Assembly: GCF_014385095.1 (NCBI RefSeq) | Contig: NZ_JACRTC010000002.1 | Span: 1 to 64,000 of the forward strand | Length of the DNA: 64,000 nucleotides | Direction: 5' to 3' | DNA from: Zongyangia hominis | GTDB lineage: Bacteria; Bacillota; Clostridia; Oscillospirales; Ruminococcaceae | Shown here: one piece after another, positions 1,836 through 61,344 of the stretch | How the letters are laid out: the number at the start of each line of letters is the position of its first letter | Position numbering within the stretch: position 1 is the stretch's first letter | Notes under the pieces: model-generated | Told to the model about the DNA's origin: nothing | The model's input: the letters and a program-made list of their open reading frames with translations, nothing else | Database searches by the model: none | Made by a program: the position numbers and the translations under genes

Positions 1836-1967
1836 ATGTGTGGTAACAACGGTTGTACTTGGATTATCCTTTTAATCATCATCCTGTTCTGCTGCGGCGG
1901 TAACGACTGTGGTTGCGGTAATAACTGCGGCTGCAACAACTGTGGCTGCAACAACTGCGGCTGCTAG
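1836..1967 (+). CDS. 43-aa cysteine-rich membrane microprotein
   Basis: Small gene with a good ribosome binding site (AAAGAGGTG, about 8 bases before the ATG). The product has a short polar N-terminus, a hydrophobic helix (about residues 9-18, IILLIIILF) and a tail built of repeated CGCNN units; 12 of 43 residues are cysteine. Such Cys/Gly/Asn-rich tails with a membrane segment are seen in small spore-associated and metal-binding proteins of Firmicutes, but I cannot name a family. It sits alone between mltG and the folate gene, is transcribed opposite to both, and is closed by a strong terminator. Function is unknown; a spore coat or metal-binding role is inference, from composition and the sigma-K-like promoter. 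Confidence 0.75.
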   Translation: MCGNNGCTWIILLIIILFCCGGNDCGCGNNCGCNNCGCNNCGC

Positions 1968-2031
1968 TTCCTTCAAATGGGCTATGATGCCCCGGCAAGA
2001 AAACATATGCAAACATCACCGTATCCCGACC

Positions 2032-2063
2032 AAAAGCCCTTGTAAGAAATTACAAGGGCTTTT
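2032..2063. terminator. Bidirectional terminator
   Basis: Stem of 13 bp (2032-2044 with 2051-2063) flanked by A-run and T-run, between the convergent microprotein gene and the 5-formyl-THF cyclo-ligase gene; it can serve both. Confidence 0.85.
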
Positions 2064-2076
2064 GCCTTGTGTCAAT

Positions 2077-2697
2077 TTATTTTACCCGCGCCGTTTCCAC
2101 TTTAGACCTCTTTGACGTGGCTCTGAGATACCGCTCGGTGACAATCAGGTCCATGGGCACGTCATAGCGGCCATGATAGAGCCGGTATCTGACAAATTCA
2201 CTGTACACAATGCCCACCCGCGGTCCGGGGTGAGAGGACAAAAAACGGTCGTAATAACCCTTGCCGTATCCCAAGCGATAGCCGTTATAATCAAAACAAA
2301 GTCCCGGGACTATGCTCAGCGCGCCGGAAAAATCGGTGACCTTCTCCGCCCGCTCAGGGTCGGGCTCCAAGACCCCGAAGGTGCGGGGTTTAAGATCCTG
2401 GAAAGAGCGGATGTAGTAAAACTCCATCAGACTTTTTCCCGGATCAATGCAACAGGGTACCGCCACCTTTTTCCCCGCCCTCCAAGCGTCTTCCATGAGC
2501 CGCTTGGTGTCCACCTCGATATCGGTGGAGACATAACAGAGCAGAAGCTTGGCCCGCTTATACTGATAGAGCGATTCCACCCTCTTTTTGATGGCCAGAT
2601 CCTTTTGTCTCTTGACTTCCGGGTCCATGTCCCGGCGCTTTTGCTTGACTTTTTCCCTCAACTGGCGCTTGTACTGTCGGATATCGGCTACCAGCAT
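2077..2697 (-). CDS. 5-formyltetrahydrofolate cyclo-ligase
   Basis: ATP-dependent enzyme converting 5-formyl-THF to 5,10-methenyl-THF, clearing a dead-end folate and refilling the one-carbon pool. Length (206 aa) is normal. Family marks are the basic N-terminus (KRQLREKVKQKRR), the substrate segment VPCCIDPGKSLMEFY and the GYGKGYYDRFL loop near the C-terminus. The ATG lies inside the end of the DJ-1 gene (10-base overlap), so translation is probably coupled. It is the last gene of a run that also encodes ThyX, the thymidylate synthase using methylene-THF, so the shared folate theme makes sense. Symbols fthC/fau/ygfA are all used for this family; I leave it blank. Confidence 0.92.
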   Translation of the reverse strand: MLVADIRQYKRQLREKVKQKRRDMDPEVKRQKDLAIKKRVESLYQYKRAKLLLCYVSTDIEVDTKRLMEDAWRAGKKVAVPCCIDPGKSLMEFYYIRSFQDLKPRTFGVLEPDPERAEKVTDFSGALSIVPGLCFDYNGYRLGYGKGYYDRFLSSHPGPRVGIVYSEFVRYRLYHGRYDVPMDLIVTERYLRATSKRSKVETARVK

Positions 2698-3227
2698 TGC
2701 ATCGACGCTCCCACCGTCTTAGCCCGGTCCTCACCTTTCAGGCACTCGACCAGTTTGAGCCCAAATTCCACCGCCGCGCCCGCTCCCTTGGCGGTGATGA
2801 ACTTTCCGTCCACACACACCCTCTGTCCACTGATGGTAGCGCCGGAGAGCTCCTGCTCATAGCCCGGGAAACAGATGGCCTCCCGGCCCTCCAATAAGCC
2901 CTTGTGGCCCAGGATGGAGGGGGCGGCACAAATGGCGCCGATCCAAAGGCCGTTGGCCACGGCGTAATCGATGCACTGCTGGACCCCCGGCGATTTTTCC
3001 AGTCCCAGGGTTCCCGGCACGCCGCCGGGTAACACGATCATCTCCAAATTGTCGTAGTCGATATGGGCCACCGTCGTATCACAGCCCACGGCAATGCCAT
3101 GGGAGCCGACGACGACGTCGTCCTGTACGCCCACGATCTGCACATCCAACTCCGCACGGCGCAAAATGTCGATGGGGGCAATGGCCTCCGTCTCCTCAAA
3201 GCCGCTGGACAAAAACACATAGATCAC
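2688..3227 (-). CDS. DJ-1/PfpI family protein (YajL-like)
   Basis: Single-domain DJ-1/ThiJ/PfpI protein of 179 aa. The nucleophile elbow cysteine is in GAICAAPSIL, and the conserved glutamate that activates it is in FEETEA near the N-terminus; FITAKGAGAAVEFGLKLVE is the usual C-terminal helix. Members act in carbonyl stress, as glyoxalase or chaperone-like enzymes; the exact activity here cannot be read from sequence. The start is a GTG at 3227 with GGAGG 8-9 bases upstream; no in-frame ATG is better placed. It overlaps the downstream folate gene, so both are one transcript. Confidence 0.9.
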   Translation of the reverse strand: MIYVFLSSGFEETEAIAPIDILRRAELDVQIVGVQDDVVVGSHGIAVGCDTTVAHIDYDNLEMIVLPGGVPGTLGLEKSPGVQQCIDYAVANGLWIGAICAAPSILGHKGLLEGREAICFPGYEQELSGATISGQRVCVDGKFITAKGAGAAVEFGLKLVECLKGEDRAKTVGASMQCW

Positions 3228-3283
3228 GATGGATTCCTCCTGTCAGTTGCAGTCTTTGCGTGAAAAGGGCCCGGCCAACTCCG

Positions 3284-4198
3284 TTAATCGAGGACAAGGC
3301 CTAAATAAGGCTCGTCCAGCGCCCGGCCTGTCAACCGTTCCGGCAGGCTTTTAAGCGCCTTGTCCCGTGTATCCCGGAGATAGACGGCCGCACCGAATTC
3401 CCGCTTTTCTCCCATCCCCGCAAAGAGGGGGCTGTCAGCGGCCAAACGCAAGAGAAAGCTGTCCTCGTCAAACGCGCTGAGCAGCGCCCGGCATAGGAGC
3501 GTCTCATCCCTCGTCCCGCATTCCTTGACCGCTATGATGCTTCCTATTTTATAACATACCATATAACCATGTCCATAGTCTGTAGAAAATCTTAATATTT
3601 TTCCACCGGTAAAGGCGTTTTCCTCCGCCACATAAGCAAGCGCCTCCTCGTCCCATCGGACAAAGATGCCCTGTTTACCGTAAAATTCTTCCCTGAGCGC
3701 ATAGAGCCCCGCGGCGTCCAAGGCTTTGAGTTCCACCGTCCGGCCTAGTGCCGGCCCCTCCGACGCGAGGCGGACAAGATCCGCCCGGGAGAGGGTCACC
3801 TCCCGCACCGAAAAGGCGGGGAGATAGCCCCGTTTGCGGTAAAACTGAAAGAGGTTTTCCTCCGCCGGAACCAGCAGAGACACGTCCACGCCGTTTTTGC
3901 GCATCCAGCGGTGGGCGTATTCGAGCAGCGCGCTGGAATATCCCCTGCCCTGCGCCTTAGGCAAAGTAGCCACGGCGTAGATATACCGGGCGGAAAAAAG
4001 GCCGTTGTCCGTGGAAATTTCACAGGGGAGCATGGTGAGCATGGCAAGCGGCTCCCCATGAACGACTTCCACCAGCGTATATTCGGGACGGAAGCGGTGG
4101 GAAAAGTATAGGTCGATATAGGCGTCCGGATCTCCGAAGCACGCCTTCCAGATGCCCTTCAGGGCGGGAAGCATCTCTTTCGTGGCAAACTGTATCAT
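3284..4198 (-). CDS. GNAT family N-acetyltransferase, two-domain (Eis-like layout)
   Basis: 304-aa protein with an N-terminal GNAT domain: the acetyl-CoA loop is LPKAQGRGYSSALLEYA (about residues 79-95), preceded by the beta-4 strand RYIYAVAT and followed by LFQFYRKRGY. The C-terminal half has no clear motif, so length and layout resemble Eis/YitD-type acetyltransferases with an added domain. The substrate is unknown. A strong GAGGAGGG lies 8 bases before the ATG. It is separated from the DUF2156 gene by 150 bases with no terminator and is probably cotranscribed with the DJ-1 gene 56 bases downstream. Confidence 0.82.
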   Translation of the reverse strand: MIQFATKEMLPALKGIWKACFGDPDAYIDLYFSHRFRPEYTLVEVVHGEPLAMLTMLPCEISTDNGLFSARYIYAVATLPKAQGRGYSSALLEYAHRWMRKNGVDVSLLVPAEENLFQFYRKRGYLPAFSVREVTLSRADLVRLASEGPALGRTVELKALDAAGLYALREEFYGKQGIFVRWDEEALAYVAEENAFTGGKILRFSTDYGHGYMVCYKIGSIIAVKECGTRDETLLCRALLSAFDEDSFLLRLAADSPLFAGMGEKREFGAAVYLRDTRDKALKSLPERLTGRALDEPYLGLVLD

Positions 4199-17520: not shown

Positions 17521-18396
17521 CTACGCCAGGCCCACCAGCCGGACGATGGACGTAAAGAGGAAACAGATGAGGATTCCGGTCACTGTGGGCACCAAGAAGG
17601 AAATTGCCGTCCACTTTTTGCTCTGGGTCTCCTTATGGATGGTCATGCAGGTGGTGGAACAGGGCCAATGCATCAGGGAGAAGAGCATGGTGGACACCGC
17701 CGTCACCCAGGTCCAGCCGTTATTGACGAGCAGGGCGTGCAGCTGGTTCATGTTGGCAAAGTCGGTGATGTGGCCGGTGGCCATGTAGGTCATGATCATG
17801 ATGGGAATGACGATTTCATTGGCCGGGAAGCCCAGAATAAAGGCCATGACGATCACGCCGTCCAGGCCCAGCAGCCGGCCGAAGGGGTCCAAAAATCCGG
17901 CACAGTGGGCCAGCAGGCTCATGTCTCCCACCGTGATGTTGGCAAGCAGCCAGATGATCAGTCCGGCAGGCGCCGCCACCACCACGGCCCTCCCCAGCAC
18001 AAACAGGGTCCGATCGAAAATGGAGCGGACGATGACCTTGCCGATCTGGGGCCGCCGGTAGGGCGGCAGTTCCAGGGTGAAGGAGGAGGGAATACCCTTT
18101 AAAATGGTCATGGAGAGGATTTTCGAAATAAGGAAGGTCATCAGGACCCCCAGGACAATGACACCGGTGAGTAAGAGGGTGGAAAGCACGGACTGGAATG
18201 CCCCGGCAAATCCTCCCACAAAGAACATGGTAATGATGGCGATGAGGGTGGGAAAGCGCCCGTTGCAGGGTACAAAGTTATTGGTGATGGTGGCGATGAG
18301 CCGCTCCCTGGGGGAGTCGATGATGCGGCAGCCCACAATGCCCGCCGCGTTGCATCCAAAGCCCATGCACATGACAGCGGAAATCAGTGCACGCAT
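17521..18396 (-). pseudogene. feoB: FeoB ferrous iron transporter, C-terminal part (3' piece of interrupted feoB)
   Basis: From the junction on, this reads as the missing second half of FeoB: CMGFGCNAAGIVGCRIIDSPRERL, then TNNFVPCNGRFPT, then the remaining transmembrane gate domain, ending at residue ~716 of the rebuilt protein. The first nine codons (MRALISAVM) come from the inserted element. No ribosome binding site is well placed for this fragment, so it may be silent while the element is integrated. It begins exactly where the 5' piece at 25230 stops: ALTM there, CMGFGC here, in frame through the shared CACATG core. Calling it a pseudogene is conditional: excision would make the gene whole. 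Confidence 0.93.
18368..18391. other. Element junction (left end): core plus inverted arm
   Basis: Core CACATG (18368-18373) followed by the element arm ACAGCGGAAATCAGTGCA (18374-18391). Left of the core is feoB coding sequence. The arm matches the reverse complement of the right-end arm in 16 of 18 positions. Confidence 0.88.
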
Positions 18397-18473
18397 CGGC
18401 CACGGAGCTGTATCCGCCTCTCCTCGCGTGTGGGGGTATCCAAATAGGGCCGTCTAATGGGCCGGGATCTCCA

Positions 18474-20063
18474 TCATTTGCCGAATCGGAAGTGGATGAT
18501 GACCCTCTGCCGCTTGCGGCCCCGGCCCGGCCCCTCCTCGTAGACGCCCTGACAGACCTCGATCTTCTCCACCAGTCTTCGGATGAGCTCTGGGGAGAGC
18601 ACTTCGGGCCGGGTCATCTCATCGAGTTGAGCCAAAAGCTGAGGCACACCGGTATCCTCCGGCGTCCGCTTCTCGTTTTTGGGGGACCTGCCCGCTTCTA
18701 GTCGCGCCTGAATCTGACGGTGTTCCGTCTCGTAGCCTTCCAGCATCCTGTAAAACCGGGCCTCGTCCAATTTTCCGCTGACGCTGTCTTCATACAACCG
18801 GGCAATGAGGCAGTCAAGCTCTGCATCCCTTTGTTTGAGTGAGGATAACTCCCCGCCTTCCCCCGTCCCCTCCTGTGGTGCCCGGGCCTTTTGCAGGGCC
18901 TCCACAATGGTCTCTTTATCCTCCTCATTCAGGGAGAGAAGTTTTTCGATCTCCCGTTGAATCACCTGATATAGGATGTCGTAGTCCAGGAAATGGTTGG
19001 TACACACGCTTTTGCCATAGAGCTTGTAGCCACCGCAGACCAGGTTGTAGGCGCTGTCCTTTCTCCGGCTGCCGGTGACCGACAGAGGTCTGCCACAGGT
19101 GGCGCAGCGGGCAATGCCGGAAAAAATGTTGCGAAACCCGGTTTTCACCCCCGAGCGTCGGGCCACGCTTCGCCTGCGCACGTTGTCAAAGGTCTCCTGG
19201 GAGACCAGCGGCTCATGCATATAGCGGGCGACAATCCATTCCTCCCGGGGATTTTGTAGAGTCAGGTGGCTTTTAAAGGATACCTTGGTCGTCTTTCCCT
19301 GGACAATATGGCCGAGATATACGAGGTTTGCCAGCATCTTGCAGACAGCGGAGGAGGTCCAGCCCCGGGTCTCGATCCCCGCAGGGAGCGTCAGGCGCTG
19401 GAAGCGGCGGTAAAGGGAAGGCGTCGCAATGCCTTCCCCATTTAAAGTATGCGCGATGGCGGCGGGAGTCTCCCCTTTTTCGGCCATTTCAAAAATTCCC
19501 CGGACCACCGGCGCTGTCACCGGGTCCACTACCAGATGATTTTTGTTTTCCGGGTCTTTTTGATAGCCATAGGGCGCAAAGTTTCCGATGAAAGCGCCCT
19601 CCCGCATCTTGGCCTGGAAGGCGCTGCGAATTTTCTTGCTGGTGTCCCGGGCGTACATCTCGTTGATGACATTTTTAAACGGGGCGATGTCGGTATAGGG
19701 ACTGTCCGAGTCGTATCCGTCATTGACCGCGATATACCGCACCCCTTTGGTGGGGAAATATATTTCCGTGTACTGCCCGGCGGTGATATAATCGCGGCCC
19801 AACCGGGACAGGTCCTTGGTGATGACCAGATTGACCCGTCTGTTCTCGATGTCCGCGATCATCCGTTTCCACTCAGGGCGCTCAAAATTGGTGCCGGAGT
19901 AGCCGTCGTCCACATACTCCCCGTACACGTCAAAGCCGTGTTCCGCCGCATAGCCCCGCAGAATCTTTCGCTGAGTGCCGATGCTGGCGCTCTCCCCCGC
20001 TCCGTCGTCCCGAGATAAGCGCAGATAGAGCGCGGCCCGATAGGTTTTCCTCTTTTCTTCCAA
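18474..20063 (-). CDS. Large serine recombinase (TndX/TnpX-like)
   Basis: Site-specific integrase/excisionase of the resolvase superfamily. The catalytic serine is S17 in ALYLRLSRDD; the resolvase domain continues with VDDGYSGTNFERPEWKRM and TKDLSRLGRDYI. Next come the recombinase domain (AKMREGAFIGNFAPYGYQKDP...IFEMAEKGETPAAIAHTLN), a zinc ribbon (CATCGRPL ... LVCGGYK ... C) and a C-terminal coiled coil, as in large serine recombinases. I start it at TTG 20063 (529 aa) because AAGGGGGG lies 6 bases upstream. Its stop is 100 bases from the element's left end, the usual place. It should act on the CACATG-centred att sites. Confidence 0.95.
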   Translation of the reverse strand: MEEKRKTYRAALYLRLSRDDGAGESASIGTQRKILRGYAAEHGFDVYGEYVDDGYSGTNFERPEWKRMIADIENRRVNLVITKDLSRLGRDYITAGQYTEIYFPTKGVRYIAVNDGYDSDSPYTDIAPFKNVINEMYARDTSKKIRSAFQAKMREGAFIGNFAPYGYQKDPENKNHLVVDPVTAPVVRGIFEMAEKGETPAAIAHTLNGEGIATPSLYRRFQRLTLPAGIETRGWTSSAVCKMLANLVYLGHIVQGKTTKVSFKSHLTLQNPREEWIVARYMHEPLVSQETFDNVRRRSVARRSGVKTGFRNIFSGIARCATCGRPLSVTGSRRKDSAYNLVCGGYKLYGKSVCTNHFLDYDILYQVIQREIEKLLSLNEEDKETIVEALQKARAPQEGTGEGGELSSLKQRDAELDCLIARLYEDSVSGKLDEARFYRMLEGYETEHRQIQARLEAGRSPKNEKRTPEDTGVPQLLAQLDEMTRPEVLSPELIRRLVEKIEVCQGVYEEGPGRGRKRQRVIIHFRFGK

Positions 20064-20126
20064 TACGCGCCCCCCTTTTTTCTCCAAGATACGACCATAT
20101 CTTTTGGATATGCCCCGGCTTATAGA

Positions 20127-20267
20127 TCAAAAAGGCGGCCGCCACACCGGCGTCTTTTCTTGGATGAGCCATTCGATCAGCACGTCTTTCAGACGCTTTT
20201 CCTCGGAAAAGACGCGCTCGACTTCGATTGTGGTGTCTTTAATTTCATAGATTGTCTTCTTCTCCAT
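20127..20267 (-). CDS. 46-aa element protein, candidate recombination directionality factor
   Basis: Small gene directly upstream of the recombinase (63-base gap) in the same direction, with GGGGGTG before its ATG. The product begins MEKKTIYEIKDTTIEVERVF and then has a predicted amphipathic helix (SEEKRLKDVLIEWLIQEK). I do not recognise a named family. Small proteins of this size beside large serine recombinases are sometimes directionality factors that switch integration to excision; that role here is inference from size and position only. Confidence 0.55.
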   Translation of the reverse strand: MEKKTIYEIKDTTIEVERVFSEEKRLKDVLIEWLIQEKTPVWRPPF

Positions 20268-20400
20268 CCCAAACACCCCCAGCAAGAATTTATGCGAGGC
20301 TGCTTGTACCTTATTCTCTGGGGCTAAGTGAAAAATGGAGGCTCTCCCCATGCTCCACGTCGGCGGGGAGTCCCCTTGCTTCCCTATTTACGCGCGCAAA

Positions 20401-20424
20401 AAGGCCGGGCGATATGCCCGGCCT
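20401..20424 (-). terminator. Terminator of the element surface-protein gene
   Basis: AAGGCCGGGC stem with complement, 20 bases after the surface protein stop on the minus strand, flanked by A/T runs. It should insulate the recombinase gene from the strongly placed surface gene upstream. Confidence 0.85.
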
Positions 20425-20442
20425 TTGATGGATCAGATGCGG

Positions 20443-23400
20443 TTATTTCTTTTTACGTTTGATGCTCAATGCCGTTGTCAGGCCCGCGATTGCCGCCAGC
20501 GCGATGCTTCCCGCAAGGAAGTCGTTGGCGCCGGTGCTCGGGTTGCCCTTGCCGCTCGTATCGGAAGAGCTGCCGCTGCCGGTAGGCCATTTCCAATCGG
20601 AGCCGCCGCCCGGTATGGAGGGCTTATCGGTGGAGCCGTTGGGTTTGACATTGGTAAAGCTCATCTCAAACCGAGAGAAGGATTTGGTCTTCACAACGAC
20701 AAACTTGCCGCCGTTCTCCTCCTGGATGGTGAGATACATAGTCTCGGTGGTTCCATTGGACAGATAGTGAACCACTTTGGCATATTTCTGGGTGACTTCG
20801 GCCGGTACCGGCAGGCGGAAAGTGATTTCGCCGCCGTTTAACTGGTCGTTTGTCAGCAGATGGGGAACGCCGTCCTCTCCTGCCCAGTAAGGAGCCGCTT
20901 CAAATATAACACTTTCCACTTTTCCATTCTTGAGGGTCACATCGGTGATCTCCACGTCTATAAACAGATCGGTGTCGCCGGTAATTTCCAGATTGCCTGC
21001 GGCAGCCTCTGCCAGACCCGTGGGAGCGGCCTGCGCCGCCGCGTTATTCAGCATTCCTTCGACAATGGTCCCCTTATTGGGATCATTTTTTAAGGATTCA
21101 TCAGCGGCGGGAGCCTTACCGATGACCTCCACCTGGGGATCGGTGATGGTGAAGACCGCATCGGCCAGCACCAGACGGTAGTTTCCATTGGCCAAAGTTC
21201 CGAGAGTAAAGGCGTAGGTGCCGGGCTCTTCACCGGCAACACGGCCAAGCGCACCCGTCAGGGAATCGTCACCCACCAATGCGGGGCTTACCGTATAGGT
21301 GAAGGAAGGATCATCCTGGCCGGTCCGTTTGCTCTGACCGGCGTCGGGAGTCACGGTGATCTCTTTGACCGCGATGGTGAAGTTCGCTTCCGCCGTGCAA
21401 GCCGCGTAGCCATCTTTGGCCGGGAAGCTTGCTTTCACCACATAGTCGCCCGCGTCGGTGGGTACTGTGTCGCTAAACTGTGCGCCCTCGGCGGCGGACT
21501 TATACTGATAGGTGACGCCATCGGTGCCGTTGGTGGCGGACACCGGAACCGGGGTCTTCGGCGCATCGCCGTAAGTCCAGCCTTCCAGCGTCACACTGCC
21601 GCTGCCTTCCAGGGTCCCGATGGACAAATCTACATTCTTGGTCAGCGTCACATTGGTAAAGTCATAGTTTTTCTTGGCGTCCTCGCTGGGAGTAAAGGTA
21701 ACGGAGTAGCTGGTCACCGCCACGGTGGGTACCGTCGCCGGATTAGTCCAGGCGAAGGCGCCGTATGCGCTGGTGCCGTCCAAGGCGTAATCAGCCAAGG
21801 TCTTATTGGGGTCATATGCGCCGCCCTGGGCCGTGGGCCAGGTGATGTCCGCGTCGGTGAGCGCTTTCTTTGCGATGGTAAAATTCGCTTCCGCCATGCA
21901 AGCCGCGTAATTGCCGGATGCCGGGAAGCTTGCTTTCACCACATAGTCGCCCGCGTCGGCGGGTACTGTGTCGCTAAACTGTGCGCCCTCGGCGGCGGAC
22001 TTGTACTGATAGGTGACGCCTTCGGTGCCGTTGGTGGCGGACACCGGAACCGGGGTCTTCGGCGCATCGCCGTAGGTCCAGCCTTCCAGCGTCACACTGC
22101 CGCTGCCCTGGGCCGCAGTGATGGCGAGATCCACATTTTGAGTGGTAGTCACGCCGGTAAAGTCATAATTTTTCTCGTCAGCCGCATTGGGAGTAAAGGT
22201 AACGGAGTAGCTGGTCACCGCCACGGTGGGTACCGTCGCCGGATTACTCCAAGCGAAGGCGCCGTATGCGCTGGTGCCGTTCAAGACATAATCAGCCAAG
22301 GTCTTATTGGGGTCATATGCGCCGCCCTGAGCCGTGGGCCAGATGATGTCCGCGTCGGTGAGCGCTTTCTTTGCGATGGTGAAGAAGGTCTGCGCGGTGA
22401 CGGACTGGTAATTGCCCGATGCGGGGAAGGTAGCTTCCAGCAGATACTCGCCCGCATCGGTGGGCACGTCGCTAGTAAACTGTGCGCCCTCGGCGGTGGA
22501 TTTGTACTGATAGGTGACGCCATCGGTGCCGTTGGTGGCGGACACCGGAACCGGGGTCTTCGGCGCGTCGCCGTAGGTCCAGCCTTCCAGCGTCACACTG
22601 CCGCTGCCCTGAGCCGCGGTGATGGCGAGGGCCACATTTTGAGTGGTGGTCACGCCGGTCAGATTATAGTTTTGCAGGGTGTAGGCGTTGGGAGTAAAAG
22701 TGACCTCATAGCTGGTCACTGCCACGGTGGGTACCGTATCCGGATTACTCCAAGCGAAAGTGCCGTAGGAATTCATGGCCAGAGGATAATCCGCCAGGGT
22801 CTTATTGGGATCATAAACCCCGCCCTGGGTGGTGGGCCACTGAATCACAGAGGGATCGAGCGCTTTTTTCCCGATAGTCAGCGCGAGGCTTGCATCGCTC
22901 CAAGTGGAAGCGTTATGATCATCTCCCGTGAAATAGGCCCAAATATAATAAGTGCCGGCCATATAGGGCAGGTCATTTTTCGTGGGCACATCGGCAGGCT
23001 TCGTATTAGCTTCGGTGGCCACATAGAAGACCGAGCCGCTGACTGAAGTGCCGCCGGAAAGAACTGCCTCGTTAAAGTCCTCACCGGGTACGAGGGCCAG
23101 TCCGTCAAAGGTGACGGCTCCCTTGGCCGTAGGTGCGGCCAGGCTGGGGGCATTTTGCACGATGGTAAAGGTCTTGATGACCGAACCGGTGTAGGCGCCT
23201 TTAAAGTTAATGGTGATGGTGCCTTCTCCCACTTCTTTGTTCTCACCGTATACCAGATCATAATGGGTACCTACGGTCAGGGGCGTCGAGCCGTCCTTGA
23301 CAACAATAACCGGCGCGATCTGGCTGCCCGTATAGGGATAGCTGGCTTCCAGTCCCTCCACGGTGGTGGTAGTTTCGTCCATCGCCCGCTTGGGGGTGGT

Positions 23401-24963
23401 GAAGGTGACAGGAGCGCTGGTGGTGGAACCCACCGCGTTTTTAACCTGCACCCTAACTTCATACTGGGTTTCGGGCTGCAGGTCGCGGAAGTCATAGGAG
23501 TTGACAAGGCCCACGATATAGCCGGTGCTCTGCCCCGGCAGTCCAAACTGGACCTCATATCCCGTCAGAGGAGATCCGCCGTCGTCTGCCGGCGCGTCCC
23601 AGGTGACGGTACAGGAATTGCTTTTCGCATCAACCTGGATGTTGCCGGGCGCTGCCGGTTTCTCCGCCGGTACTGCCATGGCGCCCTCCGGTCCGCCCTG
23701 GAAGTTTCCAGTGCCGACCACAACGGCGCGCAGGGTCTGGCCCCGGTCGTCCTTGGTCACCTCATAGGCGGCATTGGTAGCGTCGGCAATCTTGTCGTTG
23801 CCGCGGTACCACTGCCAAGTATAGGTGGGGTCGGAATTATTGAGGGTAGCGGCAGCCGTCAGGGTGTTGCCTACCGCCGGAGTTCCGGTAATTGCAACGG
23901 AACCGGTGAGCATTTCCCGGTCGGACACCGTAAATACGGTGCTGGTCACATCGCCGGCGTAGTTGCCGCTGGCGCTGACTTTACAGCTGATTTCATGATT
24001 GCGGTCTTCCTCCGCCACCGTGTAGGTCGCGGTGTTGGCGCCTTCAATGGCGGTGCCATCGCGCAGCCACTGGTAAGTAAGGCCGTCGGTGGCCTTCTTG
24101 AGCTCCGCTGCGACCGCGGCTTCCTCAGTAAGCTGGCCCAAAATTGCCTGGGAGAGCGTCACATCCTTAACTTCTGCCGTCAGCTTGACGCCGGGCAGGA
24201 CTTTGGCGGCGCCCGCGGTGGCGCTCACCGAGAAGGACAGGGGGCTCGGGGTAATTTTTCCGCCGGAGAGCTTCGCAATGGTTTCCGGCTCAAAATTGCC
24301 GAAGTTGAAGCCGCTATTGAGCGCAAGATCCGCATATTGCATGTCGCCCACGTCGGTGATACCGGGACCCTCCACTTGGTCGACGCCATCGGTCAACATA
24401 GCAAACATGACGTCGGACGCGGACAGGCTTTCGGTGGTACCGTCGTAGCCCGCAGGCTTCGTAAAGGAAAGCGAAGCAATGGTCACAGAGTTGGAGGTGT
24501 CATACTCCCTGCTCTCCGCCGTCACGATGAGCGGGAAGGTTTTGGGATCGATGGTAAACTCTTCGGTCAGGGTGACCCCCGCCTGGCTGTCAGCGATGGA
24601 ATATTTGCCATCGGGGTTGCCTGTCAGGGTGATGTCGGTGAGATCTACCGTGTTGTAATCTCCTTTGTTGGCCGACGAAAGGGTCGCCGTGGCGGTGGCC
24701 GCCACCGTATCCCCTGCTTCTGCGCCGGACAAGGTTAGGGCGACGTCGATGACCGCGCTGCCATCGTATTCCTTGCCGTAATAATCGTACGCTCCCCAAA
24801 TGGGGTCTTCCCCGATGATGTGATATTTCGCATCCGGGGCCGCGCTTGTTACGGTCAGGGTTGTGGTTGTCTCCCCTTGTGCCACGACCGTTGGCGCCAT
24901 AACGCCGACGATGAGGGCCAATGACAAGAGGACAGATAGTATCTTCTTTCTGATACTCACCAT
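20443..24963 (-). CDS. Large wall-anchored repeat surface protein carried by the element
   Basis: 1506 aa. Signal peptide 1-29. Then YDG/Ig-like strands (about 45-245), bacterial Ig-like domains with TYQWLRDG and TWQWYRGND (about 290-425), a fibronectin type III domain (435-525), a further beta domain (530-605), three tandem repeats of 166-167 aa (699-864, 865-1031, 1032-1198), an MBG-like domain (1199-1276), a beta-rich domain (1315-1440) and a proline/glycine linker (PSIPGGG, SDWKWP). The end is a sorting signal: NPSTG (1474-1478), a hydrophobic segment and KRKKK. It has no enzymatic motif; adhesin or wall-structural protein is inference. A strong promoter of its own lies inside the element, so expression does not depend on feoAB. 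Confidence 0.92.
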   Translation of the reverse strand: MVSIRKKILSVLLSLALIVGVMAPTVVAQGETTTTLTVTSAAPDAKYHIIGEDPIWGAYDYYGKEYDGSAVIDVALTLSGAEAGDTVAATATATLSSANKGDYNTVDLTDITLTGNPDGKYSIADSQAGVTLTEEFTIDPKTFPLIVTAESREYDTSNSVTIASLSFTKPAGYDGTTESLSASDVMFAMLTDGVDQVEGPGITDVGDMQYADLALNSGFNFGNFEPETIAKLSGGKITPSPLSFSVSATAGAAKVLPGVKLTAEVKDVTLSQAILGQLTEEAAVAAELKKATDGLTYQWLRDGTAIEGANTATYTVAEEDRNHEISCKVSASGNYAGDVTSTVFTVSDREMLTGSVAITGTPAVGNTLTAAATLNNSDPTYTWQWYRGNDKIADATNAAYEVTKDDRGQTLRAVVVGTGNFQGGPEGAMAVPAEKPAAPGNIQVDAKSNSCTVTWDAPADDGGSPLTGYEVQFGLPGQSTGYIVGLVNSYDFRDLQPETQYEVRVQVKNAVGSTTSAPVTFTTPKRAMDETTTTVEGLEASYPYTGSQIAPVIVVKDGSTPLTVGTHYDLVYGENKEVGEGTITINFKGAYTGSVIKTFTIVQNAPSLAAPTAKGAVTFDGLALVPGEDFNEAVLSGGTSVSGSVFYVATEANTKPADVPTKNDLPYMAGTYYIWAYFTGDDHNASTWSDASLALTIGKKALDPSVIQWPTTQGGVYDPNKTLADYPLAMNSYGTFAWSNPDTVPTVAVTSYEVTFTPNAYTLQNYNLTGVTTTQNVALAITAAQGSGSVTLEGWTYGDAPKTPVPVSATNGTDGVTYQYKSTAEGAQFTSDVPTDAGEYLLEATFPASGNYQSVTAQTFFTIAKKALTDADIIWPTAQGGAYDPNKTLADYVLNGTSAYGAFAWSNPATVPTVAVTSYSVTFTPNAADEKNYDFTGVTTTQNVDLAITAAQGSGSVTLEGWTYGDAPKTPVPVSATNGTEGVTYQYKSAAEGAQFSDTVPADAGDYVVKASFPASGNYAACMAEANFTIAKKALTDADITWPTAQGGAYDPNKTLADYALDGTSAYGAFAWTNPATVPTVAVTSYSVTFTPSEDAKKNYDFTNVTLTKNVDLSIGTLEGSGSVTLEGWTYGDAPKTPVPVSATNGTDGVTYQYKSAAEGAQFSDTVPTDAGDYVVKASFPAKDGYAACTAEANFTIAVKEITVTPDAGQSKRTGQDDPSFTYTVSPALVGDDSLTGALGRVAGEEPGTYAFTLGTLANGNYRLVLADAVFTITDPQVEVIGKAPAADESLKNDPNKGTIVEGMLNNAAAQAAPTGLAEAAAGNLEITGDTDLFIDVEITDVTLKNGKVESVIFEAAPYWAGEDGVPHLLTNDQLNGGEITFRLPVPAEVTQKYAKVVHYLSNGTTETMYLTIQEENGGKFVVVKTKSFSRFEMSFTNVKPNGSTDKPSIPGGGSDWKWPTGSGSSSDTSGKGNPSTGANDFLAGSIALAAIAGLTTALSIKRKKK
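21370..22869 (-). repeat. Three tandem ~500-bp repeats in the surface protein gene
   Basis: Units at 22372-22869, 21871-22371 and 21370-21870 (498, 501, 501 bp), encoding KKALTDADI...GGAYDPNKTLADY...GWTYGDAPKTPVPVSATNGT...FTIA. Large parts are nearly identical at base level, so unit number could vary by recombination. Confidence 0.9.
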
Positions 24964-25078
24964 ACTTTCTCATCCTTTCGGTTGCTTTTCTGCTGGTTGT
25001 ACCGGGTTTCCCCTTTACTATTCCAGACTTTTCCATCATGCGTTCAAAAAAGAGCGCACAAATTTTCCAAGTAAGTCC

Positions 25079-25107
25079 ATCATACAACTTTCGATATAAA
25101 AAGACAA
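25079..25107 (-). promoter_or_regulatory. Promoter of the element surface-protein gene
   Basis: Minus strand TTGTCT (25102-25107), 17-base spacer, TATGAT (25079-25084). It lies inside the element, ~110 bases upstream of the ATG. No other gene is visible in 24964-25229. Confidence 0.65.
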
Positions 25108-25212
25108 TAGAATTAGTCACAAAAATTAATACTAAAATTCCATCGAAACGATATGTATGACTATATCCATCGGTTCAATATCACACCAATGTTGATCCGA
25201 ATACGAGACTGC

Positions 25213-25236
25213 TGCATTGATTTCCCCTGTCACATG
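25213..25236. other. Element junction (right end): inverted arm plus core
   Basis: Element arm TGCATTGATTTCCCCTGT (25213-25230) followed by core CACATG (25231-25236) and then feoB coding sequence. On the minus strand the junction turns the feoB codon TGC into TGA, ending the 5' fragment at once. Confidence 0.88.
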
Positions 25237-26534
25237 GTTAAGGCCTGCTTGCCGCAGGCGCTTGCTTTTTTAAAGTACTTATCCAGGTTAAACGCTACTC
25301 GCGGCAGGTAGCCCAAATCTTCCAGCAGGGTGAAAAGGGGGAAGAAGATGGCCATGGGCGGCAGCATGACGGCAACCACCCAGGCCAGCACCCGATAGAC
25401 GCCCATAATCACGGCGCCATAGAGCCAGCTGGGCGCACCGCACCAGAGCATGAAGTCTCCCAGCCGGTCCCCCAGCCAGAACAGTCCGTCGGACAGTAGC
25501 TGGGAGGGATAGTTGGCCCCGGTGATGGTGATCCAGAAGATGACCGCTAGCAGTAGCAGCATGACGGGGATTCCCGTCCATTTGCTGGTGAGGATCTTAT
25601 CCAGCTTCCGGTCTCTGGCGTTATAGTTACCCCGATCGAAAAACACCGCGTCGCCACAGACGTTTTCCGCCGTCATCACCAGGCAGGACACGATGTCGTC
25701 CTTCATCTTTTCCTGGGAGACACCGCTGTTTGACAGCTTCCTTTGGGCTTCCACCAGCTTCTCGCTGACCTGGGGGTCTGAGAGAAGATCCTCCCCGAGA
25801 TATTCGGTCATGGCGGTACAAAGCGTCTCGTCGTAGTCGAGGAGCTTGAGGGAAATCCAGCGGGCGCTCAGCCTTCCGTGGAGCTTCTCCTCCATCACCG
25901 GTTCGAGCACCGCAATGGCGTCCTCGATGGGCTTGGTATAACGGATTTCCACCGTCTTGCGAGGCCCACTCTCCCCGATGACCGCAGATACCTGGTCCAT
26001 CAGCTCCCCGAGCCCCTTGCGGCTGCGGGCGCTGGCTCCCACCACCGGAACCCCCAGGTTGCGGGAGAGTTGGTCAAAATCAATGCGGATTTTCTTCTTT
26101 TTGGCTTCGTCCATCAAATTGACGCAAACCACTACCCGATCGGTGATCTCGATAGTTTGCAGCACCAGATTCATGTTGCGTTCCAAACAGGTGGCGTCGC
26201 ACACAACCACCACCGCGTCCGGGTCGCCGAAGCAGATGAAATCCCTGGCCACTTCCTCCTCGGCGGAGTGGGCCAGCAGCGAATAGGTCCCCGGAATATC
26301 CACCATGATATAGCCGGCGCCCTTATGTACCGCCCTTCCCTGGGCGTTGGTGACGGTCTTGCCCGGCCAGTTGCCGGTGTGCTGATTGAGCCCAGTCAGC
26401 TCGTTGAAGACGGTGCTTTTTCCCACGTTCGGGTTGCCCGCCAGGGCCACCACCCGATCATGAAGGTCCGCCTTTTCGATGACCAAACCGTGGTCCACAG
26501 CGCCCATTCCTGTCGAATTGGCCGTCAGACCCAT
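25230..26534 (-). pseudogene. feoB: FeoB ferrous iron transporter, N-terminal part (5' piece of interrupted feoB)
   Basis: 434 aa from the ATG at 26534 (GGAGGGG 6 bases upstream; an earlier ATG at 26549 covers that Shine-Dalgarno). It holds the complete G domain: G1 GNPNVGKST, G2 GNWPGKTV, G3 DIPGTYSL, G4 NLMDEA, G5 GASARSRKG. Then come the helical GDI-like region and the first transmembrane segments (MLLLLAVIFWITI; VAVMLPPMAIFFPLFTLLEDLGYLPRVAF). It stops at GKQALTM, exactly at the element core, where FeoB normally continues CMGFGCN. A soluble G domain with a partial pore could still be made from the feoA promoter, but transport is not expected. Confidence 0.93.
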
Positions 26535-26622
26535 TACATACCCCTCCATTCATCACGCGGCGCGGATGGCTCTTGTGCATCCGCGCCGTATTACCTTAAG
26601 TATTTATTTGACTGCCGCTCAG

Positions 26623-26859
26623 CTAGCACTGCACCACGATTTGGGAGGAATCCTCCGAGCGCAGCGCGATGACCGCTCCCCGGATTAAGTAAGCTACCGG
26701 GTCCCCGGCGGGGCTCTTTTGCAGGCAGGTGATGTCGGTTCCTTCGATGAGGCCGATGTCCTGCAGCCTCCGGCGCATACTGCCGGTGGAAAGCAGGCCG
26801 CTAACCCGGGCGGTCTGGCCCTCGGTAATGCCGCTGAGTGTCAAGAGATGTTCATTCAT
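26623..26859 (-). CDS. feoA: FeoA ferrous iron transport accessory protein
   Basis: Small SH3-like protein (78 aa) that supports FeoB at the membrane. Family features are the N-terminal LSGITEGQTARVSGL and the RRRLQDIGLIEGTDI block, plus GDPVAYLIRGAVIALRSEDSSQIVV. The ATG at 26859 has AGGAG 9 bases upstream. It leads the feoAB operon (88-base gap to feoB) and is divergent from a DtxR-type regulator; a large dyad between them is the likely iron operator. Confidence 0.93.
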   Translation of the reverse strand: MNEHLLTLSGITEGQTARVSGLLSTGSMRRRLQDIGLIEGTDITCLQKSPAGDPVAYLIRGAVIALRSEDSSQIVVQC

Positions 26860-26937
26860 AATCAAAAGCTCCTATTCATAACCATAATAAGGAGAGGCCC
26901 GTTTAAAACACACGGCCTCCGCCCATCAGTAGAAAAC

Positions 26938-27018: not shown

Positions 27019-27471
27019 ATGGACCAAAATGAATACCGCACCATCAAGGGCTACAAACTAAAAAACAACAAAGAGATCACCGATGCCATGGAAGATTATT
27101 TAGAAATGATCTGCCGTTCCGCCCGGCTTGACGGCTACGCCCGCATCAATCATCTGGCCTCCACCCTGGGGGTGCGCCCCTCCTCCGCCTCCAAAATGGT
27201 GAGCAACCTCAAGGACCTGGGGTACGTGGACTCGGAAAAATACGGCATCGTCAAGCCCACTGCCAAGGGCTGGGAGCTGGGAGGTTATCTGCTCTACCGC
27301 CACGACGTCCTCCACGATTTTCTCTGCCTGCTCAACCACACCCAGGACGAAATCGAACAGGTGGAACAAATTGAACACTTCTTTGACGAAAAGACCATTC
27401 ACAACCTAGAGCGGCTAGTCCTCTCTTTAAAAGCAGAAAGCACCACACAAAAGAATCCCTCCGGCAATTAA
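27019..27471 (+). CDS. DtxR/MntR-family metal-dependent regulator
   Basis: 150-aa winged-helix regulator. The N-terminal DAMEDYLEMICRS and RINHLASTLGVRPSSASKMVSNLKDLGYVDSEKYGIVKPTAKGWELG (about 20-90) are the DtxR DNA-binding part. The dimerisation/metal half (RHDVLHDFLCLL...DEIEQVEQIEHFFDEKTIHNLERLV) has the histidines and glutamates expected of a metal sensor. No SH3 third domain is present, so it is MntR-sized. Divergent from feoAB, it most likely represses ferrous uptake when metal is abundant. GGAG lies 7 bases before the ATG. Confidence 0.9.
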   Translation: MDQNEYRTIKGYKLKNNKEITDAMEDYLEMICRSARLDGYARINHLASTLGVRPSSASKMVSNLKDLGYVDSEKYGIVKPTAKGWELGGYLLYRHDVLHDFLCLLNHTQDEIEQVEQIEHFFDEKTIHNLERLVLSLKAESTTQKNPSGN

Positions 27472-56637: not shown

Positions 56638-57873
56638 ATGCCCTCTTTTACCTTATACCAAAAATACACCCGAGAAAAAGTGCACCATACCTTTTGTCCA
56701 AGCGAAAAATTTACACCGCAATCCGGCACCTGGGGCCTCCACGGCATTGTTCATATCAAGGGTACCGATGACTTTGTTTTCTTTGTCACTCTGGGCAGTA
56801 AACAAGCGGGACATCAATTTATCGAAACCATCACCCCCGATGGTATCCTATCCTGGCAATCACAACCCCACCAAAGTCTGTCCAGCTCCGTCATTCGCAC
56901 TCTGATCCAACACGATGCAGCCCGCAATCATATCTATCTCTTCTTCCGGCAAAATACTAGACAAAATTCCTATCTCTACTTGGGACAGCTCGCCTATGTG
57001 AACCACGATCCTGAAAAGGAATGCCCCGTCAATTTTCAGTGGCAAATTCTCCATTGGGATCCGCCGGAAAAGGTGCGGCGACTGTGTATGTTGCCATCGG
57101 CTGTATCCGAGCAGACACAAAGGCAAGGCAATTACTACTCCTGGGAGATACCCAATGATCGGGTGGCAATTAAACTAACAGATTTGTCTGTTTTTCGGTA
57201 TCGCGGTTCAGGAATTCCCAAAAAAGCTCGGTGGTTTTGGGGCGTAGATCATTGGGAAGGAAAGGAGGAAAAAGAACTCCTCTTTCTTTGGGAAGATGCT
57301 TCCTATAAAGCTACCGTTCGCCTTCAAAACGGAAGGACACGGCTTTTTTGGCATGGCGATTTGGCACAAAAGCTCCAAGCCTATTGCCCCGAGGGTGATT
57401 CTTTCACCCCTGCGCAGTTTCCATTCCTCAGATTTTCAAAGTGCGGCCAGGATGCTTATGAATTGACACTCCTCGGCTTTGAGCACTTGGAAACAGATAT
57501 TGCTCTGGAAGGAGAGACTTTCAGTGATGCCACCTCCGCTCCTAGTCTGGAGGGAGCTGGGAAAAAATCCTATGCGACGCGGTACGAACGCGACCCTAAA
57601 AACCGTAAAGCATGTATCAAAATTCATGGAACCAAATGCGCGGTGTGTGGCTTCGATTTTGAAAAAACATATGGACCATGGGGCCGTGATTATATTGAGG
57701 TACATCATCTTATTCCCCTCTCACAAATGCAAGGCGAGAGCCTTGTCAACCCCGCCACAGAGATGAAACCCCTTTGTTCCAATTGCCACCGTATGGTCCA
57801 TCGGAAAAAAGATCAAATTCTTTCCATCGAGGAGCTCCAAGCAATGCTTCGTAAAAATCGTGAGCCCTTTTAA
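56638..57873 (+). CDS. DUF3427-HNH endonuclease (defence-type)
   Basis: 411 aa. The N-terminal ~150 residues (YTREKVHHTFCPS...GTWGLHGIVHIKGTDDFVFFVTL...HIYLFFRQ...YLYLGQLAYVNHDPEKECPVNFQWQILHW) match the DUF3427 domain found in restriction-like helicase-nucleases. The middle (about 195-320) has no recognised motif. The C-terminus is an HNH nuclease: CAVCGFDFEKTYGPWGRDYIEVHHLIPLS...LCSNCHRMVHR, with the paired cysteines that bind zinc. Codon use is more AT-rich than upstream genes, and it lies beside a type I restriction-modification system, so a modification-dependent restriction (type IV-like) role is a fair inference. GAGGAGTTGATCG precedes the ATG. Confidence 0.88.
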   Translation: MPSFTLYQKYTREKVHHTFCPSEKFTPQSGTWGLHGIVHIKGTDDFVFFVTLGSKQAGHQFIETITPDGILSWQSQPHQSLSSSVIRTLIQHDAARNHIYLFFRQNTRQNSYLYLGQLAYVNHDPEKECPVNFQWQILHWDPPEKVRRLCMLPSAVSEQTQRQGNYYSWEIPNDRVAIKLTDLSVFRYRGSGIPKKARWFWGVDHWEGKEEKELLFLWEDASYKATVRLQNGRTRLFWHGDLAQKLQAYCPEGDSFTPAQFPFLRFSKCGQDAYELTLLGFEHLETDIALEGETFSDATSAPSLEGAGKKSYATRYERDPKNRKACIKIHGTKCAVCGFDFEKTYGPWGRDYIEVHHLIPLSQMQGESLVNPATEMKPLCSNCHRMVHRKKDQILSIEELQAMLRKNREPF

Positions 57874-57932
57874 ATCTATCGTTCTCCCCGCAATTCATGC
57901 GCCCTTTTCTCTTGTAGCGCACAGGTCACCCT

Positions 57933-57960
57933 CCTGTAATGTAAAATTTCACATTACAGG
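57933..57960. repeat. Inverted repeat, perfect 10-bp arms
   Basis: CCTGTAATGT and ACATTACAGG separated by 8 bases. It could be an RNA hairpin or a protein-binding dyad; no T-run follows. Confidence 0.55.
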
Positions 57961-57996
57961 AGATCTTCACCCGTCCTTCAAAAGCAGAAGGGATAA

Positions 57997-58040
57997 AAAG
58001 AAGAGCCGGGCAGGAAATGTTCCTGCCTAGCTCTTCTTTT
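57997..58040. terminator. Bidirectional terminator between HNH and hsdR genes
   Basis: Stem AAAAGAAGAGC..GGCAGGAA with its complement, A-run on one side and T-run on the other, between convergent genes. Confidence 0.85.
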
Positions 58041-58212
58041 GTATTGTTTTCCAATCTGTCAGACAACATGATCGATTCGTTGATGGGAGTTTAGTATCCA
58101 CCAGGCCAATTCGCCCGGTCAAATTACGGCCCTCGGGTGCTTGAAATAGAGGTGCATATTTTTTATTGCTATTTCGTTACTGACACTTCTATGCCATTTA
58201 CCTTTATCTGCA

Positions 58213-61200: not shown

Positions 61201-61344
61201 GAGCCAGCCAACCAGCTTTTCTTCGTCAATATTGCGATTTGCCTGTTCTTTCAGATTACCGATGTAGTTGTAGAGCAGTTTCGTACGAAAGAACTCAATG
61301 ACATGCTTCTGTGTTACAGCTTCAGGCTTTCCCACATAATCCAT
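58213..61344 (-). CDS. hsdR: Type I restriction enzyme, HsdR subunit
   Basis: 1043 aa. The N-terminal nuclease has the PD-(D/E)xK residues D134, E148, K150 in RPDLVVYLNGIAVAVIELKKS. Then come the superfamily 2 translocase motifs: Walker A TQGSGKS (293-299), VFVDECHRTQSGKLH (II), FVGFTGTPLL (III) and AICRVNRLDGEDKDFGYIVDY (VI). The C-terminal helical region binds the methylase. It translocates DNA and cuts when unmethylated target sites are met. It starts at the hsdS stop (TAATG overlap), so the three genes are one operon in the order M-S-R. Confidence 0.95.
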   Translation of the reverse strand: MDYVGKPEAVTQKHVIEFFRTKLLYNYIGNLKEQANRNIDEEKLVGWLTAHGYSAAIAIRAVEELVKAAANLQEGLYSANRAVYQLLKYGAKIKENADENEITVYFIDWENPEENLFDIAEEVTVVAKNEKRPDLVVYLNGIAVAVIELKKSTVSVSNGIRQNLTNQREMFIQPFFTTIQFCMAGNDSEGLRYGTIKTPEKYYLEWKKDGFTEYPDERNEMDVKIEEVCETISNKLDCALYAMFYKFRFLNLIHNFVIFDKGQKKVCRYNQYYGMMRAQKRLATGKGGIIWHTQGSGKSLTMIWLSKWLLANIPTARVLVVTDRDELDEQIEKNYKGVNETIIRTKSGADLLARLNSHEDRLLCSLIHKFGKRGGEATEKDYDRYIEELKASLPSNFIGKDDIYVFVDECHRTQSGKLHLAMKTIMPNAIFVGFTGTPLLKADKTASIEVFGRYIHTYKFDEGVADGIVLDLRYEYRDIPQEIMSQAKIDAWFEAKTRGLMPRAKARLKQVWGNMQTVYSSRSRLEKIVCDIIFDFETKARLADGSGNAILVANDILTACKYYELFQQKNFKKCAIISSYEPNTGDLRTETVSDDEETDAFEKYRIYLQMIGIDPNTTDKNGIAKKVEEFEAAAKKKFIDEPYNMKLLIVVNKLLTGFDAPPCTYLYIDKTMHDHGLFQAICRVNRLDGEDKDFGYIVDYRQLFGDLSAAMKKYTSGAFRGYADEDVEGLLKDRKSEAQKRFEKLLNELEELCEGVPYPKEEIDYLHYFCGENGVDVDNDEAYARIRERLYRLVNSLIRAYAEVKPLLGELGYTESQQEQYDKSVKFHVALKATIGRSSGDFIDLKAYEPGMRYLIDNYIVAEDAKVIKNFDDFTLLDFILDQREKIEGDGSKPGEQESAAEAIENNIRKKVVEKMVLNPKYYEKMSAVLERLILERKQGVIIYAQLLEKYIQLARNVTKPEENERYPEKVRHSAAMRALYDNTGCDVDLAEALHAAVMRSKMDRFRNNPVKERRIKRELLKILKSKDEVERVFKIIVEQEEY

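Follow-up and report, generated by a model that had tools for sequence, protein, structure and literature searches.

The first 64,000 nucleotides of contig NZ_JACRTC010000002.1 of Zongyangia hominis (assembly GCF_014385095.1), here called the window, contain a gene for the ferrous-iron transporter FeoB (26549-17521, minus strand) that is cut after codon Met439 by a 6,863-bp element. As read from the window ORFs (open reading frames) and Pfam, this element encodes a large serine recombinase (LSR) and a surface protein of 1,506 residues, together with a small ORF. The insertion is one case of a recurrent docking site: 20 of the 22 LSR relatives with at least 44% identity lie in the same feoB subtype and at the same codon, by which a single chance insertion is rejected. 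Very probably the insert belongs to a family of integrative elements that are specific for one attachment site, codon Met439 of a single FeoB subtype, and the best reading, in which we place equally high confidence, is that these elements dock reversibly in a dispensable FeoB paralog. Each of them brings an LSR, in most cases a partner ORF of about 50 residues, a TG dinucleotide framed by inverted attP arms, and cargo that can be exchanged.

Recurrence of the insertion at codon 439

A scan for the LSR in an 85,000-species collection, limited to six short peptide patterns, gave 22 loci, at which feoB was sought by tblastn with both feoB pieces and LSR identities were likewise taken from tblastn. 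In 15 of the 17 loci with LSR identity of at least 44%, feoB is broken exactly at residue 439. The remaining two are L004, where there is no feoB, and L020, whose LSR is truncated by the end of the contig; elsewhere in the L020 genome, a separate contig has a feoB 5' piece that matches to residue 439 and whose frame stops at 470 residues. The five loci with identities of at most 37% (L016, L017, L019, L021 and L022) have no feoB in the flanking DNA examined. From a draw of 391 class genomes the loci of the 30 best LSRs were taken; the five that reach 44%, one of them from the centre genome a second time, are all located in feoB, whereas none of the 25 at 41% or less has feoB by tblastn within up to about 1.5 kb on each side. 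Seven further loci of this draw (G430 included), at 38-43% by tblastn, have no feoB within 5.7-9 kb. Two later draws (299 and 297 genomes, E <= 1e-125) added one new LSR, also in feoB at residue 439; in all three draws only the best three to four candidates were scored per genome, and the genomes partly overlap and include the centres. Across all sets, feoB is found next to none of 37 LSRs at 43% or less in the adjoining DNA examined.

A tree of 43 LSRs built by a quick method, for which 21 of the then 30 non-feoB LSRs were taken, separates the window LSR, 19 feoB relatives, L004 and L020 from the 21 others with SH-aLRT support of 94, with L018 and L088 on long branches. The preliminary description of the window, made from its sequence, had called the insert a serine-recombinase element, and Pfam bears this out: Resolvase, Recombinase and zinc-ribbon domains occur together in a protein of more than 400 residues in all 19 members scanned, the window included. 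The DUF4368 domain is present in 18 of 19 feoB-clade LSRs tested at E <= 0.01, a set without L018, L020, L088 and L111, and scores 29.2 bits in the window LSR against a cut-off of 25. The best match of the window LSR in the PDB is TnpX, and YokA of SPbeta is a further PDB relative. Several unrelated targets would be expected of a TndX-like, multi-targeting DUF4368 clade, yet no relative at 44% or more was seen in another gene, the two outside feoB being uninformative.

Anatomy of the split locus

The lineage of LSRs to which the window element belongs is referred to as A1. The features of the locus, by window position, are as follows.

25233..26549, minus: feoB 5' piece, spanning residues 1-439 from the G domain to the first Gate region (ORF; Pfam FeoB_N and FeoB_Cyto; alignment end at 439 common to relatives)
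17521..18372, minus: feoB 3' piece, 283 residues starting at Met439 (ORF; Pfam Gate and FeoB_C)
25233..25234, minus: crossover dinucleotide TG (CA on the plus strand) at the junction with the feoB 5' piece, within the core 25231-25236 (junction reading; arm symmetry)
18370..18371, minus: TG dinucleotide of the crossover where the element meets the feoB 3' piece, within the core 18368-18373 (junctions; arm symmetry)
25214..25232, minus: attP arm 1 (sequence; inverted relative to 18372-18390)
18372..18390, minus: attP arm 2, inverted relative to arm 1 (sequence; junctions; symmetry)
18474..20087, minus: LSR, 537 residues, with Resolvase, Recombinase, Zn_ribbon_recom and DUF4368 (Pfam; tree; PDB relatives)
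20127..20267, minus: 46-residue ORF immediately preceding the LSR, a candidate for a partner or directionality factor (hidden Markov model, HMM; ORF lists)
20443..24963, minus: cargo, 1506-residue surface protein with YDG, fn3 and MBG_2 domains (ORF; Pfam)
26623..26865, minus: feoA, upstream of feoB (Pfam FeoA)
27019..27471, plus: DtxR/IdeR-type iron-dependent repressor, divergent neighbour (Pfam Fe_dep_repress)

The 5' ORF (26549-25230, minus strand) ends in GKQALTM and then meets a TGA that is made across the junction itself (ATG TG|A), and the 3' piece, MCMGFGCNAAG..., is stop-free down to 17521. These details agree with the preliminary description, which had the 3' piece resuming at CMGFGCNAAG, an in-frame join of the two and a continuous order of FeoB motifs; by Pfam, FeoB_N and FeoB_Cyto fall in the 5' piece and Gate and FeoB_C in the 3' piece. 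Intact FeoB relatives read through the split site in frame, and the closest homolog of the window FeoB, P0002, is full length, uninterrupted and 81% identical. The cargo protein has what we take, by eye, to be a signal-peptide-like start and a sorting-signal-like end. The G+C content of the element, 0.57, is like that of its surroundings. At 57000-64000 of the window it falls from about 0.57 to 0.41-0.46, possibly marking another acquired region.

Crossover point and attachment site

The crossover was mapped by reading both sides of the junction and scoring the element-side arms for inverted symmetry at every dinucleotide common to both. In all 14 A1 elements bounded on one contig the symmetry peaks at the TG of ATG439, with 10-18 of 20 positions matched there and at most 11 elsewhere, so that each has a 2-bp crossover with imperfect inverted arms on both sides; in the window the arms match at 18 of 20 positions at TG and at no more than six of 20 at other shared dinucleotides. 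The core CACATG is present at both ends exactly where it had been described (25231-25236 and 18368-18373). As the crossover, however, the six-base core is rejected: the symmetry peak puts the exchange at TG, and the six-base identity is only partly crossover.

One attP is unoccupied. At L004 a joined, unbroken attP lies just after the LSR and outside feoB (L004:2110-2180), and this FeoB subtype was not found in the genome of L004. The contig ends do not overlap, so that an excised circle is not shown; by its sequence the locus may be either a cut circle or an element residing elsewhere, or possibly a mis-binned element.

In the proposed mechanism, the LSR would join the attP of a circle to the attB of feoB by exchange at TG and thereby split the gene, the 5' half of which would usually meet a stop within the element. 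The reverse exchange would release the circle and leave feoB without a base change. We infer that both integration and excision are the work of the LSR, with the small ORF controlling the direction, and that FeoB is inactive when split, a state which the cell tolerates because other FeoB paralogs remain. The restoration of feoB in frame upon excision, as proposed in the preliminary description, is a prediction from LSR chemistry; since LSR exchange is conservative, a junction with no base gained or missing does not by itself speak for function.

Cargo and mobility

The 14 bounded A1 elements (the window, L008, L009, L011, L012, L013, L015, L059, L061, L062, L063, L102, L106 and L107) range in size from 2.15 to 15.0 kb, the smallest, L102 (G429, 1939-4091), being an LSR with a DNA alkylation repair gene in about 2.15 kb. 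Pfam was run on 39 chosen ORFs from 13 relatives of the window element, with the following assignments.

L008: phosphonate-binding and ABC proteins, SurE, 5'-nucleotidase
L009: URO-D and B12-binding proteins, RACo
L011: TrwB-type coupling protein, tyrosine integrase
L012: sugar kinase, diaminopimelate dehydrogenase
L013: MobA/VirD2 relaxase, TIR, type III restriction subunit, DNA methylase
L015: RepA_N, PTS, SIS
L059: sugar-nucleotide enzymes
L061: nonribosomal peptide synthetase (NRPS)
L062: 60KD_IMP/CDP-glycerol transferase, ABC transport
L063: TRAP transport, aminotransferase, TPP enzymes
L102: DNA alkylation repair
L106: DsbD_TM/redoxin, VanW
L107: SPFH and NERD proteins

Element content is thus not conserved among relatives; in a comparison at the level of species, the cargo differs in the 14 bounded elements. 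When the ORF sets of 11 A1 elements were compared all against all, the LSR alone recurred; the sets were picked longest-first, so that antisense ORFs displaced some genes of L008 and L015, the LSR of L061 is absent from them, and they exclude L102, L106 and L107. Generic families such as ABC ATPases do recur among elements (L008, L062). At L001 and L002, where the FeoB 3' pieces are 90% and the LSRs 83% identical, the LSR and about 280 bp upstream are held in common and the further 1.1-1.4 kb of element examined share no DNA. Such changing cargo suggests mobility and not domestication.

The L013 element (L013:3434-8830), which also has the relaxase, carries a likely defence cargo in its TIR-domain protein and type III restriction-modification pair. 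In L015 (L015:1933-2664) the 5' half of feoB is fused in frame to the RepA_N replication protein of the element, giving a 681-residue frame, and the RepA_N gene may use feoB expression.

The ORF of about 50 residues directly upstream of the LSR is matched by an HMM at 15 of 22 A1 loci (window included) versus one of 25 control LSR loci, 11 of the 15 matches being seeds of the model and four new. Weak look-alikes are present at L001, L007, L065 and L067; by HMM nothing resembling it was found at L018, L059 or L088, although L059 has a 41-residue ORF of loosely similar make-up. This ORF is a candidate directionality factor. The need for such a factor is not general, for the Tn4451 enzyme excises without one according to the excerpted review PMC5704250.

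No relaxase or other mobilization gene that would mark an integrative and mobilizable element (IME) was found by Pfam among the three ORFs of the window element. Among the 39 ORFs scanned from related elements, a relaxase occurs in L013 only and a coupling protein in L011. A phage origin of the window element was rejected, as the viral_contigs scan returned no relative, and the phage and plasmid collections gave only LSRs below 60% identity, the best among the matches listed being about 38-39%.

Other recombinase lineages in the same gene

A second LSR group, A2, with 52-66% identity within the group and 23-25% to the window LSR, splits feoB in G185, G072, G227 and G252; in all four, arm symmetry is greatest at the following TG, three bases downstream of the A1 crossover. 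The elements of G185 (40.3 kb; L053/L103/L104, G185:C1) and G072 (38.4 kb; L056/L105, G072:C12) are prophages: in a PHROGs search of ten chosen ORFs, the former gave terminase, portal, head, tape measure and tail proteins, and the latter tape measure, tail and replication proteins. At L100 (G252:C17:98000-115900, positions 1443 and 9128) the feoB pieces are opposed and the attP arms match, as if by an inversion with one breakpoint inside the element, in which case recombination of the junctions would invert and not excise.

A third LSR group, whose two members are 46% identical to each other and 22-23% to the window LSR and have the LSR domains, adjoins a break at a second position, site B, at CNGRF about 40 codons downstream of site A at Met439. 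Site B loci are L057, L060, L101, L106 and L108 (G105, G140, G248 and G496). Sites A and B are both broken in G248 and G496, and no site-A recombinase of G248 was found within the 20 kb read. Altogether three LSR lineages, 19-34% identical to one another, use this feoB.

State of the split gene and alternative readings

Matches to this FeoB subtype (E <= 1e-80) occur in 75 of the 245 genomes from the order of G009; 63 of the 75 have frames of at least 653 residues (one with an internal TAA), seven are cut at A, two at B and three are partial. One of the seven is the centre genome chosen for its LSR, and without it the count is six of 74. Of the best 120 among 7,991 FeoB homologs, classified by eye from their protein tails, 91 are full length, nine cut at A (window included), 15 cut at B and five otherwise short. 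The uninterrupted feoB that the preliminary description would have looked for in close relatives is therefore common.

The 3' pieces examined, 17 from A1 (window included) and four from A2, are open over 275-283 residues in all 21 cases; the loci of L014, L018 and L111 lack a 3' piece, and in G496 it is interrupted at site B. Read back from the junction, 21 of 22 5' pieces (17 A1, four A2 and G248) stay open across the G domain or as far as the contig reaches, the exception with a stop being G496. At 124 conserved columns the mean number of departures is 4.5 in A1, 2.0 in A2 and 1.65 in 66 intact genes (p 0.01 for all 21 split). Relaxed constraint as the cause was rejected, for the split pieces are also more diverged and the effect is gone after divergence correction (p 0.56). 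By their sequence, the feoB halves look recently split or still selected.

Permanent loss, in which the insertion would be effectively irreversible in the window strain and its FeoB lost, seems unlikely. The stop in the 5' piece of G496, where both sites are occupied, and the higher uncorrected count of departures in split 3' pieces speak for such loss; in the window, set against them, a full-length LSR lies between attP arms that agree at 18 of 20 positions, only one of 124 conserved columns of the 3' piece shows a departure, and both halves are open.

The preliminary description favoured a switch, with iron uptake through FeoB off in the presence of the element and on in its absence. It seems distinctly unlikely that, in the manner of skin in sigK, the element is kept as a phase-variable or programmed switch whose regulated excision would turn this FeoB on in some cells or conditions. 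The open 3' pieces with no excess loss of conserved residues after correction, the small ORF adjoining the LSR and the iron-dependent repressor beside feoA would all suit it, but L001 and L002 are close in FeoB and LSR and differ in the rest of the element DNA examined, three LSR lineages use the same gene, most genomes with this FeoB have no element, and the uncorrected constraint test gives more departures in split genes. Another FeoB frame of at least 640 residues is also present in 16 of 17 genomes searched (among them G004, which is without the split subtype; the exception is G016) and in six of six further genomes, so that the split would take away one of several transporters. A second intact feoB had been named as a finding that would weaken the iron argument, and for the genomes searched, to which the window genome does not belong, it does so; with elements that look mobile, the proposed on/off control is so far unsupported.

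That the halves might be translated separately into a working split FeoB, with nothing switched off, is very improbable: an in-frame ATG does lie in the 3' ORF eight codons before Met439, but by eye there is no clear ribosome-binding site at normal spacing, and the cut separates one half of the membrane part from the other, just ahead of the conserved GFGCN motif. An assembly or binning artefact can practically be dismissed, for although metagenome bins form the majority of relatives with a record title, the same junction occurs in strain records not marked as metagenome-assembled genomes, L007 (Cuneatibacter sp. NSJ-177) and L010 (Anaerovorax odorimutans SL.3.17), and a second-lineage element lies inside a 2.34-Mb contig of G185.

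Several observations weigh against the reading of a reversible, strictly site-specific family in a dispensable feoB. The feoB of the window strain is known in the integrated form only, the rejoined gene and the circle being predictions, and since the contig of L004 is not circular, its attP may have arisen otherwise. Few transfer genes are recognized in the elements, and for that reason their spread between cells is something we infer. Little separates the two groups in identity, for LSRs in feoB go down to 44.6-44.7% and the highest without feoB is at 42.7% (L113); two short LSR fragments, one at L019 at the contig end, additional to its other LSR (56% over 97 residues), and one at L070 (48% over 114 residues), have no feoB in the flanking DNA examined. 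The similarities of LSR and FeoB 3' piece correlate weakly (Mantel r 0.40, p 0.02, n 17), so that some insertions may be inherited and not repeated. PMC10083194 describes DUF4368 as typical of multi-targeting LSRs, an ill fit to a strictly site-specific family.

Wider significance

The recurrence at feoB names a chromosomal landing site common to several mobile-element lineages in Clostridia, with a cargo range that includes NRPS, type III restriction-modification, transporters and a surface protein. It also yields DUF4368 recombinases that are naturally site-specific and come with predicted attB and attP, from which one may learn how LSRs gain or lose target specificity and which are possible tools in genetically difficult anaerobes, and it allows a direct test of whether element residence controls a ferrous-iron transporter. 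A more speculative extension, which we regard as possible though doubtful, is that in Clostridia this FeoB gene commonly serves as a reversible dock, used at three crossover points by at least three LSR lineages with loads from cargo cassettes to prophages. The residence and departure of elements could then maintain on and off forms of one ferrous-iron transporter side by side in gut populations, a variation that may be under selection as a second FeoB covers the essential need, and one branch of the otherwise promiscuous DUF4368 recombinases would be strictly site-specific, with feoB as its cassette slot in the manner of the staphylococcal cassette chromosome (SCC).

Comparison with known systems

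In the SCC elements of Staphylococcus, ccr recombinases act at the end of rlmH without splitting it. By description these elements resemble those in feoB, an LSR module with exchangeable cargo at one chromosomal gene.

In titles and the opening parts of abstracts, to which the supplements of LSR catalogues do not belong, no report of feoB as an integration site of an LSR or serine integrase was found. The feoB passages of PMC3789822, PMC10794523, PMC6070778 and PMC5762655 describe no such insertion, nor do the passages of PMC5328454 describe insertion into feoB by an LSR; in PMC6070778, feoA and feoB are among the genes drawn in a figure of genomic islands. The main text of Durrant et al. 2022 (PMC10083194), as distinct from its supplements, is without feoB. 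The statement in the preliminary description that no case with feoB was known thus stands for this literature, although the insertion is one case of a recurrent docking site and not a single event.

The kind of phenomenon is already known, since PMC10083194 describes LSR convergence on single genes. In its pertinent parts the targets Mg chelatase and prolyl isomerase are, like feoB, single genes hit by many diverged LSRs, and in prolyl isomerase one conserved site inside the coding sequence is hit. DUF4368 is given there for 0.73% of site-specific LSRs, against 18 of the 19 feoB-clade LSRs tested. The serine-recombinase IMEs in rumA, traG and maff2, as excerpted from PMC5704250, are likewise small elements that disrupt a dispensable gene internally; among the related feoB elements scanned a relaxase is confined to L013.

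The Tn4451/TnpX and Tn5397/TndX-type elements of Clostridia belong to the same wider LSR group, in which TnpX is the best PDB match and records annotated as TndX match the window LSR at 37.7%. Tn4451 has a 2-bp exchange, as proposed for the feoB elements, but enters many sites (both from excerpts of PMC5704250), whereas the feoB clade is found at one codon of one gene and with other cargo. The closest parallels in outcome are skin-Cd in sigK of Clostridioides difficile and SPbeta in spsM of Bacillus subtilis, for which the relevant passages of PMC5025042 describe an LSR element that splits a gene, its removal restoring the gene as predicted here, and a separate factor that sets the direction of recombination. 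Those excisions are developmental and experimentally demonstrated, whereas the feoB elements are known here from sequence and vary in their cargo.

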